This document shows, in pieces, positions 967-46,789 of a DNA stretch of 64,000 bases. The translations under genes were made by a program, and so were the position numbers. Source of the stretch: Bacteroidaceae bacterium (GTDB lineage: Bacteria; Bacteroidota; Bacteroidia; Bacteroidales; Bacteroidaceae); NCBI GenBank assembly GCA_017469925.1, contig JAFUFK010000011.1, forward strand, positions 1-64,000, given 5' to 3'. The notes beneath the pieces are model-generated. The model was not told the DNA's origin and made no database searches. It worked only from the letters and a program-made list of their open reading frames with translations. Numbering within the stretch: position 1 is the stretch's first letter; every line of letters starts with the position of its first letter.

Positions 967-1236
967 CTATTTTGTCCACATTTTTCCTACCTCTCGGGGG
1001 GTGGCCCGGAACCTGCCGCCGGAAGTTATGTTAACCTATCGGCCGAGATAATGTTAACTTCCGGCCATCGGTTAACTTAACCTGGGGGCGTAGGTTAACA
1101 TAACTTCCGGCGCCCCCTTCTAAGGCACGGCGAAATCGCCCCGTTTATTGTTGATAGACAGGTCGTTACGTTTTCGGGCCAGATGCTGCGATGTGGGAGA
1201 CGGGCTCGCCCCGCCGCCCCCGGGCGGTTGTAAGGA
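967..1236. repeat. Dispersed element, copy 1 (about 270 bp)
   Basis: This stretch aligns almost end to end with 46527-46789. Shared landmarks in order are TTTTTCCTACCTCT, GGAACCTGCCGCCGGAAG, the four-unit 23-bp array, CCTGGGGGCGTAGGTTAAC, TTGATAGACAG and GGGCTCGCCCCGCCGCCCC. The two ends are imperfectly inverted (TCCTAC..GGGGGGTGG against the complement of CCGCCCCCGGGCGG..GTAAGGA). No ORF fits its length. It fills most of the 611-bp gap between the divergent pckA and Fic genes. It could be a MITE-like element or a structured transcript. Confidence 0.8.
1020..1115. repeat. 23-bp-pitch palindrome array, locus A (4 units)
   Basis: Eleven-base near-palindromes GTTATGTTAAC, ATAATGTTAAC, GTTAACTTAAC and GTTAACATAAC start at 1025, 1048, 1071 and 1094, exactly 23 bp apart. 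The 12-bp spacers are GC-rich and usually contain GGC or GGCC. Outer units are inverted: CCGGAAGTTATGTTAACCTA is the exact complement of TAGGTTAACATAACTTCCGG, a 20-bp perfect inverted repeat around the two inner units. Confidence 0.9.
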
Positions 1237-1273
1237 TTTTTGCTACAGTTTCAGACAAAGGGGTCTCAAAAAC

Positions 1274-5860: not shown

Positions 5861-5902
5861 GAACTTTAAACTTTAAACTTCGAACTATTAACTTTGAACT
5901 TT
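5861..5902. repeat. Six-unit NAACTNN heptamer array between tRNA-Arg and korA
   Basis: Units start at 5861, 5868, 5875, 5882, 5889 and 5896 at exactly 7 bp: GAACTTT, AAACTTT, AAACTTC, GAACTAT, TAACTTT, GAACTTT. The AACT core is invariant and the flanking bases vary. The same consensus occurs at 45197 and 47706. Confidence 0.85.
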
Positions 5903-5909
5903 ACGAAAG

Positions 5910-11681: not shown

Positions 11682-11721
11682 CCGCTAAACGATTAAATTC
11701 TTAAACCATTAAACTTTTATA
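11682..11721 (+). repeat. Five NNNNTAAA octamers between dnaE and trxA
   Basis: Exact 8-bp steps: CCGCTAAA, CGATTAAA, TTCTTAAA, CCATTAAA, CTTTTATA (last unit degenerate). The array fills almost the whole 45-bp gap and ends 4 bp before the trxA ATG. Confidence 0.75.
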
Positions 11722-11725
11722 AACT

Positions 11726-12049
11726 ATGGCACTACACATCACATCCGCCAACTACAACGAGATTGTCGGCCAAGGCCGACCCACAGTGATTGACTTCTGG
11801 GCAACCTGGTGCGGCCCCTGCAAGCGCCTTGCCCCCACTATCGAGGAACTTGCCACCGAGTACGCCGGCCGCGTAAACATCGGCAAGTGCGACGTCGAAG
11901 AGGACGGCAACGACGACCTCGCTATGCAGTTCCAGGTCAGCAGCATCCCCTGCCTAATCTTCCTCGACGGCCAAGGCCAGCTCGTCCAGCGCCTCGTAGG
12001 CCTGCAGAGCAAGCCCGCCCTGCAACAGGCTATCGAAAAGTTGCTCTAA
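11726..12049 (+). CDS. trxA: Thioredoxin
   Basis: 107 residues, a single cytoplasmic thioredoxin fold. The active site is WCGPC (Cys29, Cys32) and the cis-Pro is Pro75 in SSIPCLIF. The residue after the cis-Pro is Cys76, where most thioredoxins have Thr; with Cys55 the protein has four cysteines. It carries no signal peptide. Likely a disulfide reductase in the cytosol; a more specialised partner is possible given the extra cysteines. Confidence 0.93.
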   Translation: MALHITSANYNEIVGQGRPTVIDFWATWCGPCKRLAPTIEELATEYAGRVNIGKCDVEEDGNDDLAMQFQVSSIPCLIFLDGQGQLVQRLVGLQSKPALQQAIEKLL

Positions 12050-12084
12050 CCGTTAACCATTAAACGTTAACCGTTAAACTTTTA
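12050..12084 (+). repeat. Five NNNTTAA heptamers between trxA and the next gene
   Basis: CCGTTAA, CCATTAA, ACGTTAA, CCGTTAA, ACTTTTA at exactly 7 bp, ending 6 bp before the next ATG. The preceding 7 bases, GCTCTAA, hold the trxA stop and keep the phase, so the series may start inside trxA. Confidence 0.75.
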
Positions 12085-12090
12085 TACATT

Positions 12091-12423
12091 ATGGCTGATT
12101 TCGAAGACGAACTGCTGCAGGACGCCGAAGACGACCGCCGCACTGTGGAGTACATCCAGAATTACCTGCCCCAGGAACTCAAGGACAAGTTCACCGAAGA
12201 GCAACTCTACTACTTCCTCGACGTCATCGTCGATTACTATGCCGAAAGTGGCATCCTCGAGGCGGAACCTGACGAGGACGGCTCCATCGACATCGACGTA
12301 GAGCAGATTGCCCAACACCTCGCCCAGCAAGCCCGCAAGGACGGGATGGGAGAGTTCTCGGCCGAAGACCTCCGCTGGGTCGTAGAGGGAGAGATGGAAT
12401 ACGCCGAGCAGCAAGAGCAATAA
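12091..12423 (+). CDS. Small acidic protein of unknown function
   Basis: 110 residues, strongly acidic, no signal peptide or membrane segment. It reads as mostly helical (DDRRTVEYIQNYLPQELKDKF, then LYYFLDVIVDYYAESG). I do not recognise a characterised family. It follows trxA by 41 bp on the same strand behind a 7-bp repeat leader, so co-transcription with trxA is likely. No catalytic motif is visible. Confidence 0.75.
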   Translation: MADFEDELLQDAEDDRRTVEYIQNYLPQELKDKFTEEQLYYFLDVIVDYYAESGILEAEPDEDGSIDIDVEQIAQHLAQQARKDGMGEFSAEDLRWVVEGEMEYAEQQEQ

Positions 12424-19165: not shown

Positions 19166-19239
19166 GTTCGTTCTCTCTTTTATGGTGCAAAGTTACAAAA
19201 AAATGGCAAATAAATAATGTTTCCAAGGCGTCCATTTAC

Positions 19240-19342
19240 GTAATATTAACCTACGCGCGTCAGTTAACTTAACTTATGGCGATAAGTTAATATTATCGAT
19301 GGGCGTAAGTTAATATTATTGACAGGCGTAAGTTAATATAAC
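19240..19342. repeat. 23-bp-pitch palindrome array, locus B (5 units)
   Basis: Units GTAATATTAAC, GTTAACTTAAC, GTTAATATTAT, GTTAATATTAT and GTTAATATAAC start at 19240, 19263, 19286, 19309 and 19332, each exactly 23 bp apart. Spacers carry GGCG or GCGCG. The core is more AT-rich than at the other loci, and the array sits between the porX 3' end and tsaE. Confidence 0.9.
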
Positions 19343-30890: not shown

Positions 30891-33800
30891 TTTACAAGAA
30901 CCTTACGAACAGAGCCATCAGCCATACGGACGATATTGATGCCACGCTGCAACGTATTCAGGCGGGCACCGCTCAGCGAGTAGATGCCGGCAGGCATGGC
31001 GGCAGGCCTTACGGCCACCTCTTCGACACCCGTCAGCAGGTCAACATTGTTGCCGCTTCCATAGTAGTAGAGATTCCATTCGCCTACAACTTCGTAGTCG
31101 TTGGCCAGCACCTTAGTCTTCTTCAGGCCGATGCGCACATTGCCGTCAGCACCTACGTAGAAGGGAAGTTCGTTCAGATAGTACCCGGCCTTAAAGTAAG
31201 CCACCGTCGGGGTTGTACCGTCAGGGGCATACTTGCCATTGCTCAGGGTGTAGCACTTCACGTCATCCACGGGTTCATCAGTAGCATCCTCACAGAGGTT
31301 CATGACGGGCTTCGAATACGTCTCGTCGGCAGTCTTGGCATAGAAGGTCGTCAAGTGCGTTTCTTCGCCTCTAGCAATACGATCTTCCTCCTCGTTGTAG
31401 TAACCTGCACGATAGTAGGTGTGGACGGTTACCTTATACGTACCCTCACGCAGACCGGAAAGGTCCTGATAGAGATCGATGCCGGCACGGTTGTACGAGA
31501 CGGTGTTCTCCTTATAGCCGTTCATGGCACTCGTTACCCAGCCATCGATGGTCTGCGAATTTTTATCGCCGCGGTCGGGGTCGAACTTGTTATTGACGAT
31601 GAGCGACGACATGTCTTGTTCGTCAGCCAGGCCTTCCTGTTCCTCGCCCATATACCAAAGTTTCCATTCGCCCACGACCTCATAGTCGTTGGCATAGGTT
31701 TCCTTCTTCGACAGGCCTATCGTCACCTCGCCGTCCTCGGGAACAGTAAAGCGCAACTCGTTCAAATAGTAGCCAGCCTTGAAGTAGGCAGCCGTAGGCG
31801 ACGTGCCGTCGGGAGCATACTTGCCATTGCTCAGCGTATAGCACTTCACATCATCGACGGGCTGGTCGGTAGCATCTTCGTAGAGGTTCATCACCTTGGT
31901 CTCGAAGCGGTCGGCACTCGTCTGGGCATACAGGGTGGTCAGGTGAGTCTCCTCGCCATTTGCCACGCGGGTCTCTTCCTCGTTATAGTAACCCGCACGA
32001 TAGTAGGTGTGGACGGTTACCTTGTACTTGCCCTTTGGCAGACCAGTCAGTTTCTGGTTCAGTTCGAAGGGAGCACGGTTATACGATACGGTATATTCCT
32101 TATAGCCGTTCATGGCAGTCGTTGTCCAGCCATCGATGGTGCCGTCGTTCTTCGAACCACGATCGGGGTCGAAGTTGCTGTTGACAATAGCCGACGTGTA
32201 GTCCACGGGATTCTCCTCCGAAGCTTCGCCATCGGGGAACAGGATGTTGACTACCATTGCATTCAGGTTTGCTGTTGCCTCTTCGGCTTCGGCAGAGCTG
32301 TAGGCCTGAGTCTGATAGGCATCCATACACTCGTTGTAGAGGGCTTTTGCCTTTTTTATGACATCGGCACCGGCCGTCGTGTTGCCCAGGATAGCCTGAT
32401 CGAGATTGAACAGGGCCACCGCAAGTTTCTGATAGATGGAGGTACCTTCCTCCACGGCCTCTATCTTTTCCTTCAGGTCAATCAGTGCATTGTAGAGGTC
32501 CTCGTCGGCACACTCCGAAGCATAGGTGGCAGCAGTTTCCATTGCATCAAGTTCTGGTTTGCCACAATAGTTCGAGAGCAGTTCGTTGACGGTTACGTTC
32601 GTGTTGGAAATGACCTCACGCAGGGCCTCGACATTCTTCGAGCGGAAAATCAGCTTCACCGGACCAATCCATGCGGCAGAACCGTCGGTAACGCGCAGGT
32701 TGTTCAGGAAGCCCACCTTCATGGTGCCGTCGGTCACCAGTCCATAGACATGGCCTGCATAACGGCCTGCCTGGAAGTAGGTGTAAGCACCTTCGGCGCC
32801 ATCCTTTCCGTCGTTAGGGCCATACAAATCTTTCTCATACAGATAGTCTCCGCTTGTCAAGGGCTCTTCTGACAGGTCGTCGAGGATGCCAGGGAGCTTC
32901 GACTGGTAATTATTGATGTAGGCATAGGCCTTGGCAGCCTCTACATGCTCTGCGTTAAACTCGCCGGCATTGCCTGGACGATACAGGGCATTGTAGTCGA
33001 GTTCGTACAGACCATTTTGCAGGCCTTCCAACTCCTGATATACGTCGAACACCATGTTCCAACCCTGCAGTACGGGACGTCCGCCCGTAGGATAGGTCAG
33101 GCTCGAGGTGGTGGTCCAGCCGGTCGATTGCTCGAAGTTGGGGTTGCGCAGCAGTTCGGTGCAGTCGTCGCCGTCGGCCATGCTGTTGGCCATGGCATCG
33201 GTCAGAATCTTATTGAGATACTCCATTTCGGCCGCAATCTCCTCGGCCGAGAGTGTACCATTCTCCAGGATATAGTCGGAACTTCCGTGTCCGTTGAATC
33301 CCTCGCCCGTAGCGCCGCCGAGGTAGTCGGAAAGCAGGATTATCTCGTCCGAGTCGCTGTCCTTCGTATCCAACCACTCAAAGGCAGCGGTTATGGCTTC
33401 AAAGTACTTGGCATAGGCATCGGCACTCGTCTTCATACCCTCGAGGGCGGGGGCAAACTTCTCCAGTGCATCTATCACGTCGGCAGCAGCCGTTGCCGCT
33501 TGCAGATTGTGTTTCGCAGTCAGGTAGGCCTCATAGACCAAGTGCTGGTAGTAGAATTCTTCGCCAGCCTCCTTCAGGGCTTCATAGTCGGTACCACTCT
33601 CCAGCGCTTCCTTAGCCACGGACTGATAGGCCTCGTCGCCGGTGCCCAGATACATCATTCGCCAGTCGTCCCAGCACATCCAGTCGCCATCCAGCGTCTC
33701 TGTCTTTTGCAGCCCGATTGTCATCTTCTGTCCCGTCTTCACGATGACGTTCAACTGGGTGGGCGCATACTGTCCGGCCTTTACGAAGATGTCGGCCGTG

Positions 33801-36131: not shown

Positions 36132-36540
36132 CGAAATGGGCAATTTCTTTCGCGGGGGCGCGCACGATAGAATATAGTATAGAGGGGCGTATTGTAAAGA
36201 ATTTTCGCACTTCCCGAAAAGTCTCCCCGAACTCACCGCCGCATGTTATATTAACTTGCGGCCACAGGTTAACATAACTCGCGGCCATAGATTAACATAA
36301 CTCGTGGCCGAAGGTTAACATAACTTACAGCCGCCGGTTTCGGGCCCCGTCCGGAGAAGGAAATATCCGTCTGATTTTCAATCTGTTGCCATTTCTCCCA
36401 AAATCCTCCCCTCACCACGGGCCGAACGCAGCCCCCTCTTCACACCATTCGCCGGGAGGGGCCCGCTTGTAACGATTTTTCAAAACCCGCGAATCTCCGC
36501 CCTATGTTATTTTTCTATTAAAAAACCTTAAAGCAGGGCT
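36132..36540. other. Non-coding gap between aroB and the FKBP operon
   Basis: About 400 bp with no plausible gene. It holds repeat array D (36245-36324) within a stretch that follows the same order as the dispersed element at 967 and 46527: CCCGAA..CACCGCCGCATG, array, then GGGCCCGCTTGTAACGATTTTT, which resembles CGGGCGGTTGTAAGGATTTTT of copy 1. It is best read as a diverged third member. Confidence 0.6.
36245..36324. repeat. 23-bp-pitch palindrome array, locus D (4 units)
   Basis: GTTATATTAAC, GTTAACATAAC, ATTAACATAAC and GTTAACATAAC start at 36245, 36268, 36291 and 36314, exactly 23 bp apart. Three spacers share the pattern C(G/A)CGGCCA or GTGGCCG. The first unit is inverted relative to the others. 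Confidence 0.9.
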
Positions 36541-36610: not shown

Positions 36611-37195
36611 ATGGACAAAATCAGTTACGCTCTGGGCCTCGGCATCGGCCAACAGCTTAAGAGCATGAACATTAAGGGATTCAACATCGGCGACTTCACG
36701 AAGAGCATTGCCGACGTCATCGACGGCCAACCTACCCTGATGACGGCACGCGAGGCACAGGAGCTGCTGAACGAATACTTTGCCACGAAGCAGGCCGAGG
36801 AATCGAAACGGGCCATCGAGGAAGGAGCCGTGTTCCTGCGCAACAACGGTCAGCGCGAGGGCGTGGTGACCACGAAGAGCGGCCTGCAGTACGAGGTATT
36901 GCAGGAAGGCACGGGCCGCAGCCCGAAGGCTACCGACCGGGTGCGCTGCCACTACGAGGGACGCCTCATCAGCGGCGACGTCTTCGACAGTTCGTACAAG
37001 CGCCAGCAACCCGCCGACTTCGGCCTCAACCAGGTAATCCCCGGCTGGACGGAAGGCGTGCAGCTGATGAAGGAGGGCGCGAAGTTCCGCTTCTTCATCC
37101 CCTACCTGCTGGGCTATGGCGAGCAGGGGGCCGGCAGTTCCATCCCACCCTACTCTACCCTCATCTTCGACGTAGAATTAATCAAAGTTTTATAA
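36611..37195 (+). CDS. FKBP-type peptidyl-prolyl isomerase, cytoplasmic
   Basis: 194 residues. An N-terminal helical dimerisation part (ISYALGLGIGQQLKSM) is followed by a FKBP domain (about 85-194: RVRCHYEGRL, VFDSSYKRQQPADFGLNQVI, GAGSSIPPYSTLIFDVEL), as in Mip/FkpA proteins. No signal peptide, so cytoplasmic, unlike the two paralogues that follow. First of three FKBP genes in a row on one strand, 23 bp before the second. Confidence 0.9.
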   Translation: MDKISYALGLGIGQQLKSMNIKGFNIGDFTKSIADVIDGQPTLMTAREAQELLNEYFATKQAEESKRAIEEGAVFLRNNGQREGVVTTKSGLQYEVLQEGTGRSPKATDRVRCHYEGRLISGDVFDSSYKRQQPADFGLNQVIPGWTEGVQLMKEGAKFRFFIPYLLGYGEQGAGSSIPPYSTLIFDVELIKVL

Positions 37196-37218
37196 ATCCT
37201 AAAAACACAAAAAACAAA

Positions 37219-38088
37219 ATGAAAAAGTTAAGCATTATCTTCGTGGTGGCCATTGCTGCCATCATTGCATCTTGCGGCAACGGCACCCCCAAGGCCGACC
37301 TCAAGAACGACATCGACACCTTCTCCTATGCCTTCGGCATGGACCGCACACAGGGTCTGAAGGAGTACATGGTCAGCATGGGCGTGGACACCGCCTACAT
37401 GGACGAGTTCATCAAGGGTCTGAACGAAGGCGCCAACGCCAACGACGACAAGAAGAAGGCAGCCTACTTCTTCGGCCTCAACATCGGCCAGCAAATCAGC
37501 CAGCAGATGGTTAAGGGCGTCAACTACGAACTCTTCGGCGAGGACTCGACCCAGAGCATCAGCATGAAGAACTTCATGGCCGGCTTCGTAAGCGCACTCA
37601 CCGAGAAGGGTGGCCTGATGACCCTCAACGAGGCTCAGGTGGTATCGCGCCAGAAGCAGCAGGAAATCAAGAAGGCCCAGATGGAGAAACTCTACGGCCC
37701 CTGGAAGCAGGAGAACGAGGACTTCATGGCTAAGATTGCCAAGCAGGAAGGCCTGTCGAAACTCGACAACGGCGTCTTCTACAAGGTCATCGAGGAAGGC
37801 AAGGGCGAAGTGCCCGCCGACACCAGCCGCGTCAAGGTGAACTACGAAGGCAAGCTCATCAACGACACCATCTTCGACAGTTCGTACAAGCGCAACGAAC
37901 CCACCACGTTCCGTTGCAATCAGGTAATCCCCGGATGGACCAACGCACTGACCCACATGCCCGTAGGCTCGAAGTGGGAGGTTTACATCCCCGCCGACCA
38001 AGCTTACGGGGACCGCGAGGCCGGGCCCGTCATCAAGCCCTTCTCGGCACTGGTATTCACCATCGAACTCCTGGGCATCGAGAAGTAA
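37219..38088 (+). CDS. FKBP-type peptidyl-prolyl isomerase, lipoprotein
   Basis: 289 residues. Lipobox AIIASCGNG gives a lipid anchor at Cys19. A helical FkpA-like N-domain contains a repeated pattern (DTFSYAFGMDRTQGLKEYM and FFGLNIGQQISQQM). The FKBP domain occupies about 185-289 (VKVNYEGKLINDTIFDSSYK). Likely folds or holds envelope proteins in transit. It is 1 bp from the next paralogue. Confidence 0.9.
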   Translation: MKKLSIIFVVAIAAIIASCGNGTPKADLKNDIDTFSYAFGMDRTQGLKEYMVSMGVDTAYMDEFIKGLNEGANANDDKKKAAYFFGLNIGQQISQQMVKGVNYELFGEDSTQSISMKNFMAGFVSALTEKGGLMTLNEAQVVSRQKQQEIKKAQMEKLYGPWKQENEDFMAKIAKQEGLSKLDNGVFYKVIEEGKGEVPADTSRVKVNYEGKLINDTIFDSSYKRNEPTTFRCNQVIPGWTNALTHMPVGSKWEVYIPADQAYGDREAGPVIKPFSALVFTIELLGIEK

Positions 38089-38089
38089 A

Positions 38090-38980
38090 ATGAAAAAGAC
38101 ACTCATCCTCTTAGCGGCGCTGTGCTGTCTGACGGCCAGCGCCGCCAACAAGAAGAAGGCCAAGAAGGTCGCCGCCCCCGTGGAGAAGGTCGATACCGTC
38201 AGCATCAACGACTTCTGTTATGCCCTCGGCAAGGTCAACACACAGGGACTGAAGGAGTATCTCGCCCAACGCATGGGCGTGGATGCCGCCTACATGGACG
38301 ACTTCGTGAAAGGCTTCGACGCAGGCACCCTGACCGAGGCCGACAAGCGCGAGAAGGCTCGCCTGGCCGGACTGGAGATTCGCGAACAGGTGATGAATCA
38401 AATCATCCCCCGATTCTCGAAGCAAATCAACGACTCCGTTGACCTGATGAATGCCGACCGCTTCGTGGCTGGCTTCCGTGCCGGACTGACGGGCGAGAAC
38501 GACGAGATGCCCATCTCGATGGACAGCGCACAGACCATCGTGAGCAAGCAGATGGACTACTACCACAAGGAACAGATGGAACGCAAGTACGGCGCCAACC
38601 GCAAGGCCGGTGAGGAATTCCTGAAGCAGAATGCCAAGGCGAAGGACGTAGTCACTACCCCCAGCGGACTGCAGTACAAGGTGCTCACGAAGGGCGAGGG
38701 CGAAGTGCCCACCGCCTCACAGCGCGTCAAGGTGAACTACGAAGGTCGCCTGCTCGACGGCACCGTATTCGACAGCTCGTACAAGCGTAACGAACCCGCC
38801 ACCTTCGGTTGCAGCCAAGTCATCAAGGGATGGACCGAAGCCCTGACCATGATGCCCGTCGGCTCGAAGTGGGAACTCTACATCCCGCAGGAACTGGCCT
38901 ACGGCGACCGCGAGACGGGCAGCATACCACCTTACTCCATGCTCATTTTTACAGTTGAACTGTTAAGCATTGAAAAGTAA
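38090..38980 (+). CDS. FKBP-type peptidyl-prolyl isomerase, exported
   Basis: 296 residues. The signal peptide MKKTLILLAALCCLTASA has a cleavage-type end and no lipobox, so probably soluble periplasmic. It has the same layout as the preceding gene (FCYALGKVNTQGLKEYL, then FKBP domain with VKVNYEGRLLDGTVFDSSYK and IPPYSMLIFTVELL). The three genes look like tandem duplicates that diverged in location: cytoplasm, lipid anchor, free periplasm. Confidence 0.9.
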   Translation: MKKTLILLAALCCLTASAANKKKAKKVAAPVEKVDTVSINDFCYALGKVNTQGLKEYLAQRMGVDAAYMDDFVKGFDAGTLTEADKREKARLAGLEIREQVMNQIIPRFSKQINDSVDLMNADRFVAGFRAGLTGENDEMPISMDSAQTIVSKQMDYYHKEQMERKYGANRKAGEEFLKQNAKAKDVVTTPSGLQYKVLTKGEGEVPTASQRVKVNYEGRLLDGTVFDSSYKRNEPATFGCSQVIKGWTEALTMMPVGSKWELYIPQELAYGDRETGSIPPYSMLIFTVELLSIEK

Positions 38981-44258: not shown

Positions 44259-45219
44259 CCGCCCCGTCTTCCTCGCTCCGATGGAGGACGTCACCGACAT
44301 TGGCTTCCGCCTGCTCTGTAAGCAGATGGGGGCCGACCTCGTCTATTCCGAATTCGTATCGAGCGACGCCCTTATCCGCGGTGTCAATCGCTCGTTGGAG
44401 AAGTTGGAGGTATGCGCCGACGAGCGCCCCGTAGCCATACAAATCTATGGCCGCTTCGTCGAGGCCATGCGTGACGCCGCCCAGATTGTAGTCGAGCAGG
44501 CCCATCCCGACCTCCTCGACATCAACTTCGGCTGTCCTGTCAAGCGCGTGGCAGGCAAGGGAGCCGGAGCCGGCATGCTACAGAACATACCCCTCATGCT
44601 CGAGATTACCCGCGCCGTCGTCGATGCCGTCCCCGGCACCCCTGTCACCGTCAAGACACGCCTCGGCTGGGACCACGATCACCGCATCATCACCACCCTG
44701 GCCGAGCAACTTCAGGACTGTGGCATCCAGGCCCTGACCATCCACGGTCGCACCCGCTCGCAGATGTACACCGGCGAGGCCGACTGGACGCTCATCGGCG
44801 AGGTCAAGCGCAACCCGCGCATCCATATCCCCATCATCGGCAACGGCGACGTCACCACCCCCGAGCGGGCCAGCGAATGCTTCGAGCGCTACGGCGTCGA
44901 TGCCATCATGGTCGGCCGCGCCACCTTTGGTCGCCCCTGGATTTTCCGCGAGATTCGCAACCACCTCGACGGTCGCGAAGAAGTGCTCACGCCCGACTGG
45001 AAGCTCGACATTCTGAAGCAGCAGGTCCACATCAGCGTAGAGCGACTGGGCGAGTATCGCGGTATTCTCCATAGCCGTCGCCACCTGGCCGCCTCGCCCC
45101 TCTTCAAGGGCATCCCCAACTTCCGCGAAACCCGCATTCGCATGCTCCGTGCCGAGACCGTTGCCGAGCTGTTCGAGATTATGGACACCGTCAGACCAAC
45201 TCTAAACTCTCAACTATGA
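44227..45219 (+). CDS. dus: tRNA-dihydrouridine synthase
   Basis: 330 residues. An FMN enzyme reducing uridine to dihydrouridine in the tRNA D-loop. Seen: VFLAPMEDVTDIGFR (15-29), DINFGCPVKRVAGKGAGAGM with catalytic Cys near 103, TVKTRLGWD, TIHGRTRSQMYTGEADW, and IIGNGDV near 205, as in DusB-type enzymes. The start at 44227 lies 32 bp inside sufE; it is the only ATG that keeps the conserved N-terminal motif. Confidence 0.93.
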   Translation: MPWPSRLNFPDRPVFLAPMEDVTDIGFRLLCKQMGADLVYSEFVSSDALIRGVNRSLEKLEVCADERPVAIQIYGRFVEAMRDAAQIVVEQAHPDLLDINFGCPVKRVAGKGAGAGMLQNIPLMLEITRAVVDAVPGTPVTVKTRLGWDHDHRIITTLAEQLQDCGIQALTIHGRTRSQMYTGEADWTLIGEVKRNPRIHIPIIGNGDVTTPERASECFERYGVDAIMVGRATFGRPWIFREIRNHLDGREEVLTPDWKLDILKQQVHISVERLGEYRGILHSRRHLAASPLFKGIPNFRETRIRMLRAETVAELFEIMDTVRPTLNSQL

Positions 45220-45231
45220 ACTCTGAACTGC
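45197..45231 (+). repeat. Five NAACTNN heptamers across the dus/U32 junction
   Basis: CAACTCT, AAACTCT, CAACTAT, GAACTCT, GAACTGC at exactly 7 bp, inside coding sequence. They encode the dus C-terminus and, in another frame, the start of the U32 protein, and include the overlapping stop and start ATGA (45216-45219). Same AACT core as at 5861. Confidence 0.8.
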
Positions 45232-46526: not shown

Positions 46527-46789
46527 ATATTTTGTTCGGATTTTTCCTACCTCTTTGGGGGCGGTCCGGAACCTGCCGCCGGAAGTTATGTTAACCTATC
46601 GGTCGAAATTATGTTAACTTCTGGCCACTGATTAACTTAACCTGGGGGCGTAGGTTAACATAACTTTCGGCAACCCCTTCGAAGGCATAAAGAAAACACC
46701 CCATTTATCGTTGATAGACAGTGTGTTACGCTTTTTGTCGAATGCTGCAATTCGGAGATGGGCTCGCCCCGCCGCCCCGGGCGAAGTTA
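46527..46789. repeat. Dispersed element, copy 2 (about 263 bp)
   Basis: Second copy of the element at 967-1236, with the same order of landmarks and long identical blocks. It fills the gap between the converging U32 and UvrA-like genes and ends on the UvrA stop codon (46787-46789), so it abuts or slightly enters that gene. Confidence 0.8.
46585..46664. repeat. 23-bp-pitch palindrome array, locus C (4 units)
   Basis: GTTATGTTAAC, ATTATGTTAAC, ATTAACTTAAC and GTTAACATAAC start at 46585, 46608, 46631 and 46654. The outer inverted repeat matches copy A except for one change, where CTTCCGG became CTTTCGG; the change still pairs as G-U in RNA. Confidence 0.9.

Follow-up and report, generated by a model that had tools for sequence, protein, structure and literature searches.

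The stretch of DNA considered here (the window, 64,000 nucleotides or 64 kb) carries four intergenic arrays of short near-palindromic units repeated every 23 bp, among at least 40 such arrays parsed in the same genome. We believe the best account of them, and one we would give about an even chance, is that they are non-autonomous, BrickBuilt-like intergenic elements holding phased sites for a candidate dimeric DNA-binding protein. The array core would be a series of short near-palindromic DNA sites, each with an orientation, that follow one another every 22-23 bp, which is about two helical turns, so each site would face the same side of the helix, and this phasing is probably the reason for the pitch. 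The four-unit arrays would be the core of a separate element that has a leader and a tail motif and, in complete copies, end repeats in the same orientation, spread by insertion between genes and presumably mobilised by an enzyme in trans. The array would most likely be a row of phased binding sites for a putative homodimeric protein, either the mobilising enzyme or a chromosome-organising protein.

A sequence-only reading of the window had placed arrays at 1025 (4 units), 19240 (5), 36245 (4) and 46585 (4) with an exact 23-bp step, and all four hold up on the sequence, with pitch 23 throughout. They also lie between genes in varied orientations as it had said: loci A and C are divergent, B is co-directional and D convergent. 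The repeat is a GTTAACWTAAC-like unit plus 12 bp, with units of about 11-15 bp and spacers of 10-12 bp. The spacers are near-palindromic too because any dyad repeated at a fixed period gives this. GTTAWNWTAAC with up to 1 mismatch has 15 sites in the window against 2.8 expected, a count that 0/100 shuffles reach, and all of these sites except one at 31982 (14/15) lie inside the arrays. Among unit pairs less than 60 bp apart in the window (up to 2 mismatches), 13 are at distance 23 and 9 at distance 46, with none at 22 or 24. The remaining distances of 5, 18, 28, 41 and 51 arise because 23 and 46 shifted by 5 are the same palindrome read twice.

All features below are on the plus strand. At locus A the array spans 1025..1104 (units 1025-1035, 1048-1058, 1071-1081 and 1094-1104). 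A direct repeat, TTGTCCACATTTTT, which we call the X end, stands at 972..985, 53 bp before the first unit; the tail motif TTGATAGACAG-GTC-GTTAC follows at 1151..1169 and the right direct repeat TTGTAAGGATTTTT at 1228..1241. The outer units of this array had been described as a perfect 20-bp inverted repeat; we find 42 bp at 81% with a perfect core of 22 bp. Locus B is a five-unit array at 19240..19342 (units at 19240, 19263, 19286, 19309 and 19332) located between tsaE and a porX-like gene, without direct-repeat ends. Locus C has its left direct repeat TTGTAAAGAATTTT at 36192..36205, four units at 36245, 36268, 36291 and 36314 (array 36245..36324), the tail motif CTGATTTTCA-ATCT-GTTGC at 36371..36389 and the right repeat TTGTAACGATTTTT at 36467..36480. 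Locus D has TTGTTCGGATTTTT at 46532..46545, four units at 46585, 46608, 46631 and 46654 (array 46585..46664) and the tail motif TTGATAGACAG-TGT-GTTAC at 46711..46729; no right direct repeat was found within 400 bp (up to 2 mismatches). Loci A and D have 207 bp in common at 86%, non-array flanks included, and are therefore copies of one dispersed element rather than independent loci.

The window holds other repeats as well. Simple repeats of 7 bp and a dispersed repeat of a second kind, TTTATAAAAGTTTAACGG..., lie at 718-765, 811-842, 5862-5903, 11684-11731, 12047-12104 and 45198-45229; the copies of the dispersed repeat at 718 and 11684 match in inverted orientation over 48 bp at 85%. Congener stretches also hold simple repeats of 7-8 bp. 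Alternating purine-pyrimidine runs (GCGCGCACG, ACGCGCGTGCGC), possibly Z-DNA-prone, lie near several arrays (window 36155-36170, L020, L023, L002).

The genome of the window (G000) is assembled to 2.87 Mb in 28 contigs and is 86% complete. A genome scan had been proposed as the check on whether the arrays exceed chance, and they clearly do: the two-unit 23-bp pattern with up to 1 mismatch occurs 111 times on each strand, and its reversed form once. The oriented pattern with up to 3 mismatches gives 78+71 pairs against 0/0 reversed, and a looser pair pattern gives 159 against 27 in the control. The 40 arrays listed comprise 25 with four units, 12 with five, two with two and one with three, and 0/40 lie inside a called gene. 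Their contexts are 14 divergent, 14 co-directional and 12 convergent; the ten gaps of at least 150 bp in the window are 4, 4 and 2 respectively, so no orientation preference is shown.

The four-unit and five-unit arrays differ in their surroundings. An end motif, TTGTAANNATTTTT (up to 2 mismatches), is found in 19/25 four-unit and 0/12 five-unit arrays listed (Fisher p 1e-5), at a fixed offset from one array end that is mostly 53 bp. Fifteen elements have this motif at both ends in the same orientation, as direct repeats, and these elements measure about 256-336 bp from repeat to repeat and are non-coding. Genome-wide, TTGTAARGATTTTT (up to 1 mismatch) has 21 matches, and all of them are within 224 bp of an array. 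The tail motif TGANNNTCANNNNGTTA (up to 1 mismatch) is enriched 20-fold near arrays, and its form TGA...TCA....GTTA is found near 21/40 of those listed. Most four-unit arrays thus form the central part of an oriented element that has a leader and a tail motif and, in complete copies, direct-repeat ends. In the 70 bp outside the end repeats, the range that was searched, 15 G000 and 17 G026 copies show no excess of inverted or direct repeats over mispaired flanks; the true ends may be further out. An outer inverted repeat at locus C, TTCGCGGG/CCCGCGAA, was rejected: 1/15 copies has one of at least 8 bp, as mispaired flanks predict (6.7%). The end repeats are also unlikely to be a target-site duplication since 6/14 G026 copies read AACA on the left and AAGA on the right. 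One mobile element cannot explain all arrays, because the five-unit arrays and the arrays of G131 and G148 are without these ends.

Comparison of orthologous gaps polarizes the history of two loci. The porX-tsaE gap holding array B was compared in 13 close relatives (porX identity 88-91%), 9 of them measurable: it is 279 nt here, -13 to 67 nt in 8/9 and 437 nt in the remaining one, G132. The aroB-FKBP gap at locus C is 537 nt here and 147-160 nt in 6/7 measurable relatives, of 14; that of G014 is 376 nt and carries a different hairpin insert. The alignment at locus C places about 350 extra bases, including the array, ends and tail, between conserved flanks; the DNA missing from the relatives spans 36148..36503, with approximate bounds that extend past the direct repeats. 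These empty sites mean the arrays at both gaps were gained by insertion. At locus D synteny is not kept in relatives and there is no comparable gap. Another intergenic hairpin repeat, CAATTGTCCGTCAAGCG..., occurs in the G014 aroB-FKBP gap (L122 about 1125-1500) and in the G132 porX-tsaE gap (L093), so the same gaps are filled by different palindromic repeats in different species. Downstream of locus C lie three tandem FKBP-type prolyl isomerase paralogues (window 36890-38919), and the relatives likewise have neighbouring paralogues.

The genes porX and tsaE nearly touch in 8/9 measurable relatives, and in the window (19186-19342) tsaE has a box, TAACTTTGC, just downstream of array B that is promoter-like by the Bacteroidetes consensus; the insertion of array B may thus have split an operon. 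The separation of these genes favors the idea that the arrays are selected regulatory or architectural sites, bound by a nucleoid-like or transcription-insulating protein to the benefit of the host, with mobility secondary. So do the terminator-like hairpins of neighbouring genes that flank several five-unit arrays (by eye), and a pitch that is kept while the sequence differs. However, none of the three loci compared has its array at a conserved position, the genes next to the arrays of the window are unrelated and mostly housekeeping, and the orientations follow no rule. We find this idea rather improbable.

The element with direct-repeat ends extends to some congeners. The end motif has 37+33 matches in G026 against 0+1 in the control, is also far above control in G031, G090, G099, G076 and G034, and is at background in other congeners, including G131 and G148. 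Arrays were looked for at its sites in G026, at one site in G031 and at one in G070. Fourteen aligned G026 copies measure 338-360 bp start to start with a mean column identity of 72%; the consensus shows a YTGANAATCANNNGGTTAC-like motif, which most copies retain, and four units with a 22-bp pitch whose sequence bears no relation to GTTAAC. At the G031 site four TTTCCAACTG-type units at 22 bp precede the end motif, while the G070 site has no clear array (by eye). In G014, units GTTATGCAAC/GTTGCATAAC are spaced 23 bp apart, with ATGTAAGGATTTTT after them. The element as a whole is likely to be homologous between G000 and G026, though array and tail motif come in a different order in the two and homology is therefore not proved.

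Six G026 sites with a single strict end repeat were considered as places for an autonomous partner, but at four of them a second repeat is present in diverged form at the usual distance, which makes them full elements. The other two, L238 and L240, have no second repeat there. A longer 22-bp array of about five units, with the end motif on one side only, lies at L240 4837-4943 (G026:C47).

The sequence-only reading had also offered a folded RNA, and here it did not fare well: the covariance check it suggested turned up no compensatory changes within units, within spacers or across the array. Inside units and spacers the observed pairs are near or below expectation at nearly all positions; across the arrays listed, z is 1.2 for the 25 four-unit and -1.9 for the 12 five-unit arrays, with no G-U/A-C bias and so no bias of strand. 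A conserved RNA fold is therefore unsupported. It is true that on each strand the fold of arrays A-D is better than that of shuffles (z -3.7 to -5.5), but single arrays fold well on both strands because any self-complementary array must. RNAalifold on the G026 copies finds changes on both sides in 9/39 predicted pairs, with a covariation term of only -0.45, and a leader hairpin seen by eye in one copy has most of its pairs broken in the others. In several even palindromes the symmetry is perfect right up to the centre, so there is no room for a loop. Rfam finds two tRNAs in the window and nothing else; in seven loci it gives 17 weak matches, all below gathering scores. A structured RNA, or a hairpin acting as RNA, is in our opinion very unlikely.

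The GTTAAC form of the array is lineage-specific. It is strong in 3/139 genomes of the genus, our own included: 111 pairs in G000, 65 in G131 and 38 in G148. One to three plausible pairs each occur in G066, G032, G101, G132 and G144; the other matches in the genus are A+T-rich sequence of another kind. Over 84,980 species the exact two-unit pattern matches 24 stretches in five genomes: RUG12681 (13), SRR5976181_bin.41 (8), RUI437, RUI210 and one Chthonomonas, which looks like chance. The record titles of matching genomes read Bacteroidales, Prevotellaceae or Bacteroidaceae, and the RUG and RUI sets presumably derive from ruminants. There are 0 exact matches in IMG/VR, and element A has no match in plasmid or phage collections. 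Loss of the pitch in related strains would have told against the arrays as first described; the relatives with GTTAAC arrays keep the 23-bp step.

The pitch is more general than the sequence. We scanned non-coding DNA for tandem similarity at lags 17-60, blind to sequence and with simple repeats removed, in 20 congeners sampled by rule (the first 20 kb of contig 1, six contigs being shorter than 20 kb; 35.7 kb non-coding). All 12 of the 12 intergenic tandem-repeat loci are at 21-23 bp, and by eye their sequences differ. Eight further congeners, whose contigs had been met in earlier searches rather than sampled by rule, have 16/20 loci at 21-23, 44 or 46. The simple-repeat filter removed 5/17 loci in the first set and 5/25 in the second. 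At the loosest threshold 11-16 of 13-19 loci fall at 21-23 or 43-46, and at stricter ones all do. These counts are lower bounds, since at its threshold the scan detects only 1/4 of the window arrays. In 24 genomes of other Bacteroidales families (61.6 kb non-coding), 3/3 and 2/4 loci are at the period, the remaining two being at 42. No loci came out of block shuffles of the first stretches.

Could such repeats be neutral minisatellites, made by tandem duplication and quasi-palindrome correction with no protein involved? Some arrays do consist of almost identical tandem units (L044 of G131), and in one G026 copy, whose first unit is degenerate, there is an additional unit of about 22 bp. But one period over differing sequences is left unexplained by such a process, and E. 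coli K-12 has 0 loci at lags 17-60 in 200 kb (28.5 kb non-coding). Different palindromes also share one register: the G131 arrays are mosaics in which GGTTAACTTAACC, GGGATAGTATCCC, GGTTCTAGAACC, AAGGTCTAGACCTT and hybrids of these follow one another in step. We regard neutral minisatellites as unlikely.

Symmetry follows the same spacing. Dyad symmetry exceeds a column-permuted null in 10/28 congener loci (p<0.05; combined p 3e-6); it is not significant individually in the other 18, nor in the 3 order-level loci tested. Past the GTTAAC arrays of G131, other palindromes carry on at steps of 22, 22.5 or 23 bp. Measured blindly, and leaving aside the spacer centre near 11 bp, palindromicity there peaks 22.5 and 23 bp from the last unit (z 7.6 and 6.1). 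In G148 it is raised at 22.5 only (z 3.7). At 44.5 bp z is 3.8 in G131 and 4.1 in G148, where this is the top offset. G000 is raised weakly at 22-23 bp (z 3.4-4.8), with 0/80 flank ends having 5 of 6 pairs, and is not raised at 44-46 bp. A distance histogram of perfect palindromes has no clear peak, and a strict scan for 13-mer palindromes at pitch 23 finds 2 in G001, 1 in G131 and 0 elsewhere, including the window. Our reading is a distance of 22 bp between dyads, to which each odd palindrome adds half a base.

The suggestion of selection on spacing thus comes out stronger than it went in, since a period of 22 +/-1 is kept over congener sequences that differ. It seems to be the spacing itself that is kept, rather than the sequence. 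We would go further only tentatively. There may be a genus-wide, perhaps Bacteroidales-wide, class of arrays in which only the geometry is conserved and the palindromes are free to change, with BrickBuilt as one member; this is possible, at well below an even chance. Such geometry would consist of a fixed 22-bp block between dyad centres, with 1 bp added for odd palindromes. If this is true, it would call for a protein that reads symmetry and helical phase instead of sequence, or alternatively for a family of dimeric DNA-binding proteins that co-evolve fast and assemble with one fixed geometry. The usual classification of intergenic repeats goes by sequence, and a class recognised by spacing and symmetry escapes sequence searches. 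A true spacing rule would point to new DNA-binding machinery in gut bacteria.

A cooperative DNA-binding protein, proposed from the start, is still the likeliest reading of the arrays, but neither that protein nor an autonomous partner was found. Units also vary between arrays and within single arrays, which one sequence-specific protein would not readily tolerate. The defined ends of the four-unit element are a handle for finding the mobilising enzyme.

How do these arrays compare with known systems? CRISPR arrays are regularly spaced too, but spacers here are 10-12 bp, the short gaps by which the sequence-only reading had excluded them, and the palindromic units are of many types. Plasmid iterons and the multi-site ends of Tn7 and Mu have several sites about two helical turns apart, and by analogy the phased sites would act much like these. 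Unlike them, our arrays are dispersed chromosomal copies, and no initiator or transposase gene was found. Compared with MITEs in general, the orthologous empty sites at the aroB-FKBP and porX-tsaE gaps agree, whereas terminal inverted repeats and a target-site duplication are not seen within 70 bp outside the end repeats. None of the titles and abstract openings listed by searches of open-licence PMC literature mentions such arrays in Prevotella or a fixed 22-23 bp period.

BIMEs are intergenic mosaics of several palindrome types, and the G131 arrays resemble them in this. REPs are described as intergenic palindromes (PMC3733652). What sets our arrays apart from both is a fixed pitch of 22-23 with units of about 11-15 bp, and by eye there is no constant tetranucleotide tag at the units. 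REP/BIME units made by a RAYT (Y1) transposase are an extremely improbable explanation. PF01797 is over cut-off in 53/139 genus genomes and in 0/5 of G000, G131, G148, G066 and G032, an absence not significant alone (Fisher p 0.16). G000 has one sub-cut-off Y1 match (E 9.6e-4), and the other four have none at E 0.001; the assemblies are 82-87% complete.

The closest likeness is to BrickBuilt of Porphyromonas gingivalis. BrickBuilt is described as having 19 strictly intergenic copies of a 23-nt unit, AGAYCATARTATCCTCTCRTRTG, with 1 to 22.8 repeats, a leader and tail around the repeats or neither, and IS5-like terminal inverted repeats, GAGACCTTTGCA; 10/19 copies are predicted to be flanked by terminators and/or polyadenylation sites (PMC4596501). 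The same paper mentions 22- and 23-nt tandem repeats in strain W83, and reports no BLASTn match outside P. gingivalis, with P. gulae homologues found by other means (PMC4596501). We computed on the published unit that it has two dyads half a period apart, 9/11 pairs each, which count as one coincidence because a periodic sequence with one dyad has a second. Our arrays share this period and dyad layout, the strictly intergenic location, and a leader and tail that are sometimes missing (the X end is present in 19/25 four-unit arrays listed). They differ in that the unit sequence is unrelated, the ends are direct rather than inverted repeats, and the arrays listed have 2-5 repeats. The IS5-like end GAGACCWTTGCA (up to 2 mismatches) lies near 3/40 arrays listed, 0.7 times background. 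The statement that no named family fits has to be qualified: judged on these comparisons, the arrays have the same architecture as BrickBuilt and are not the same family.
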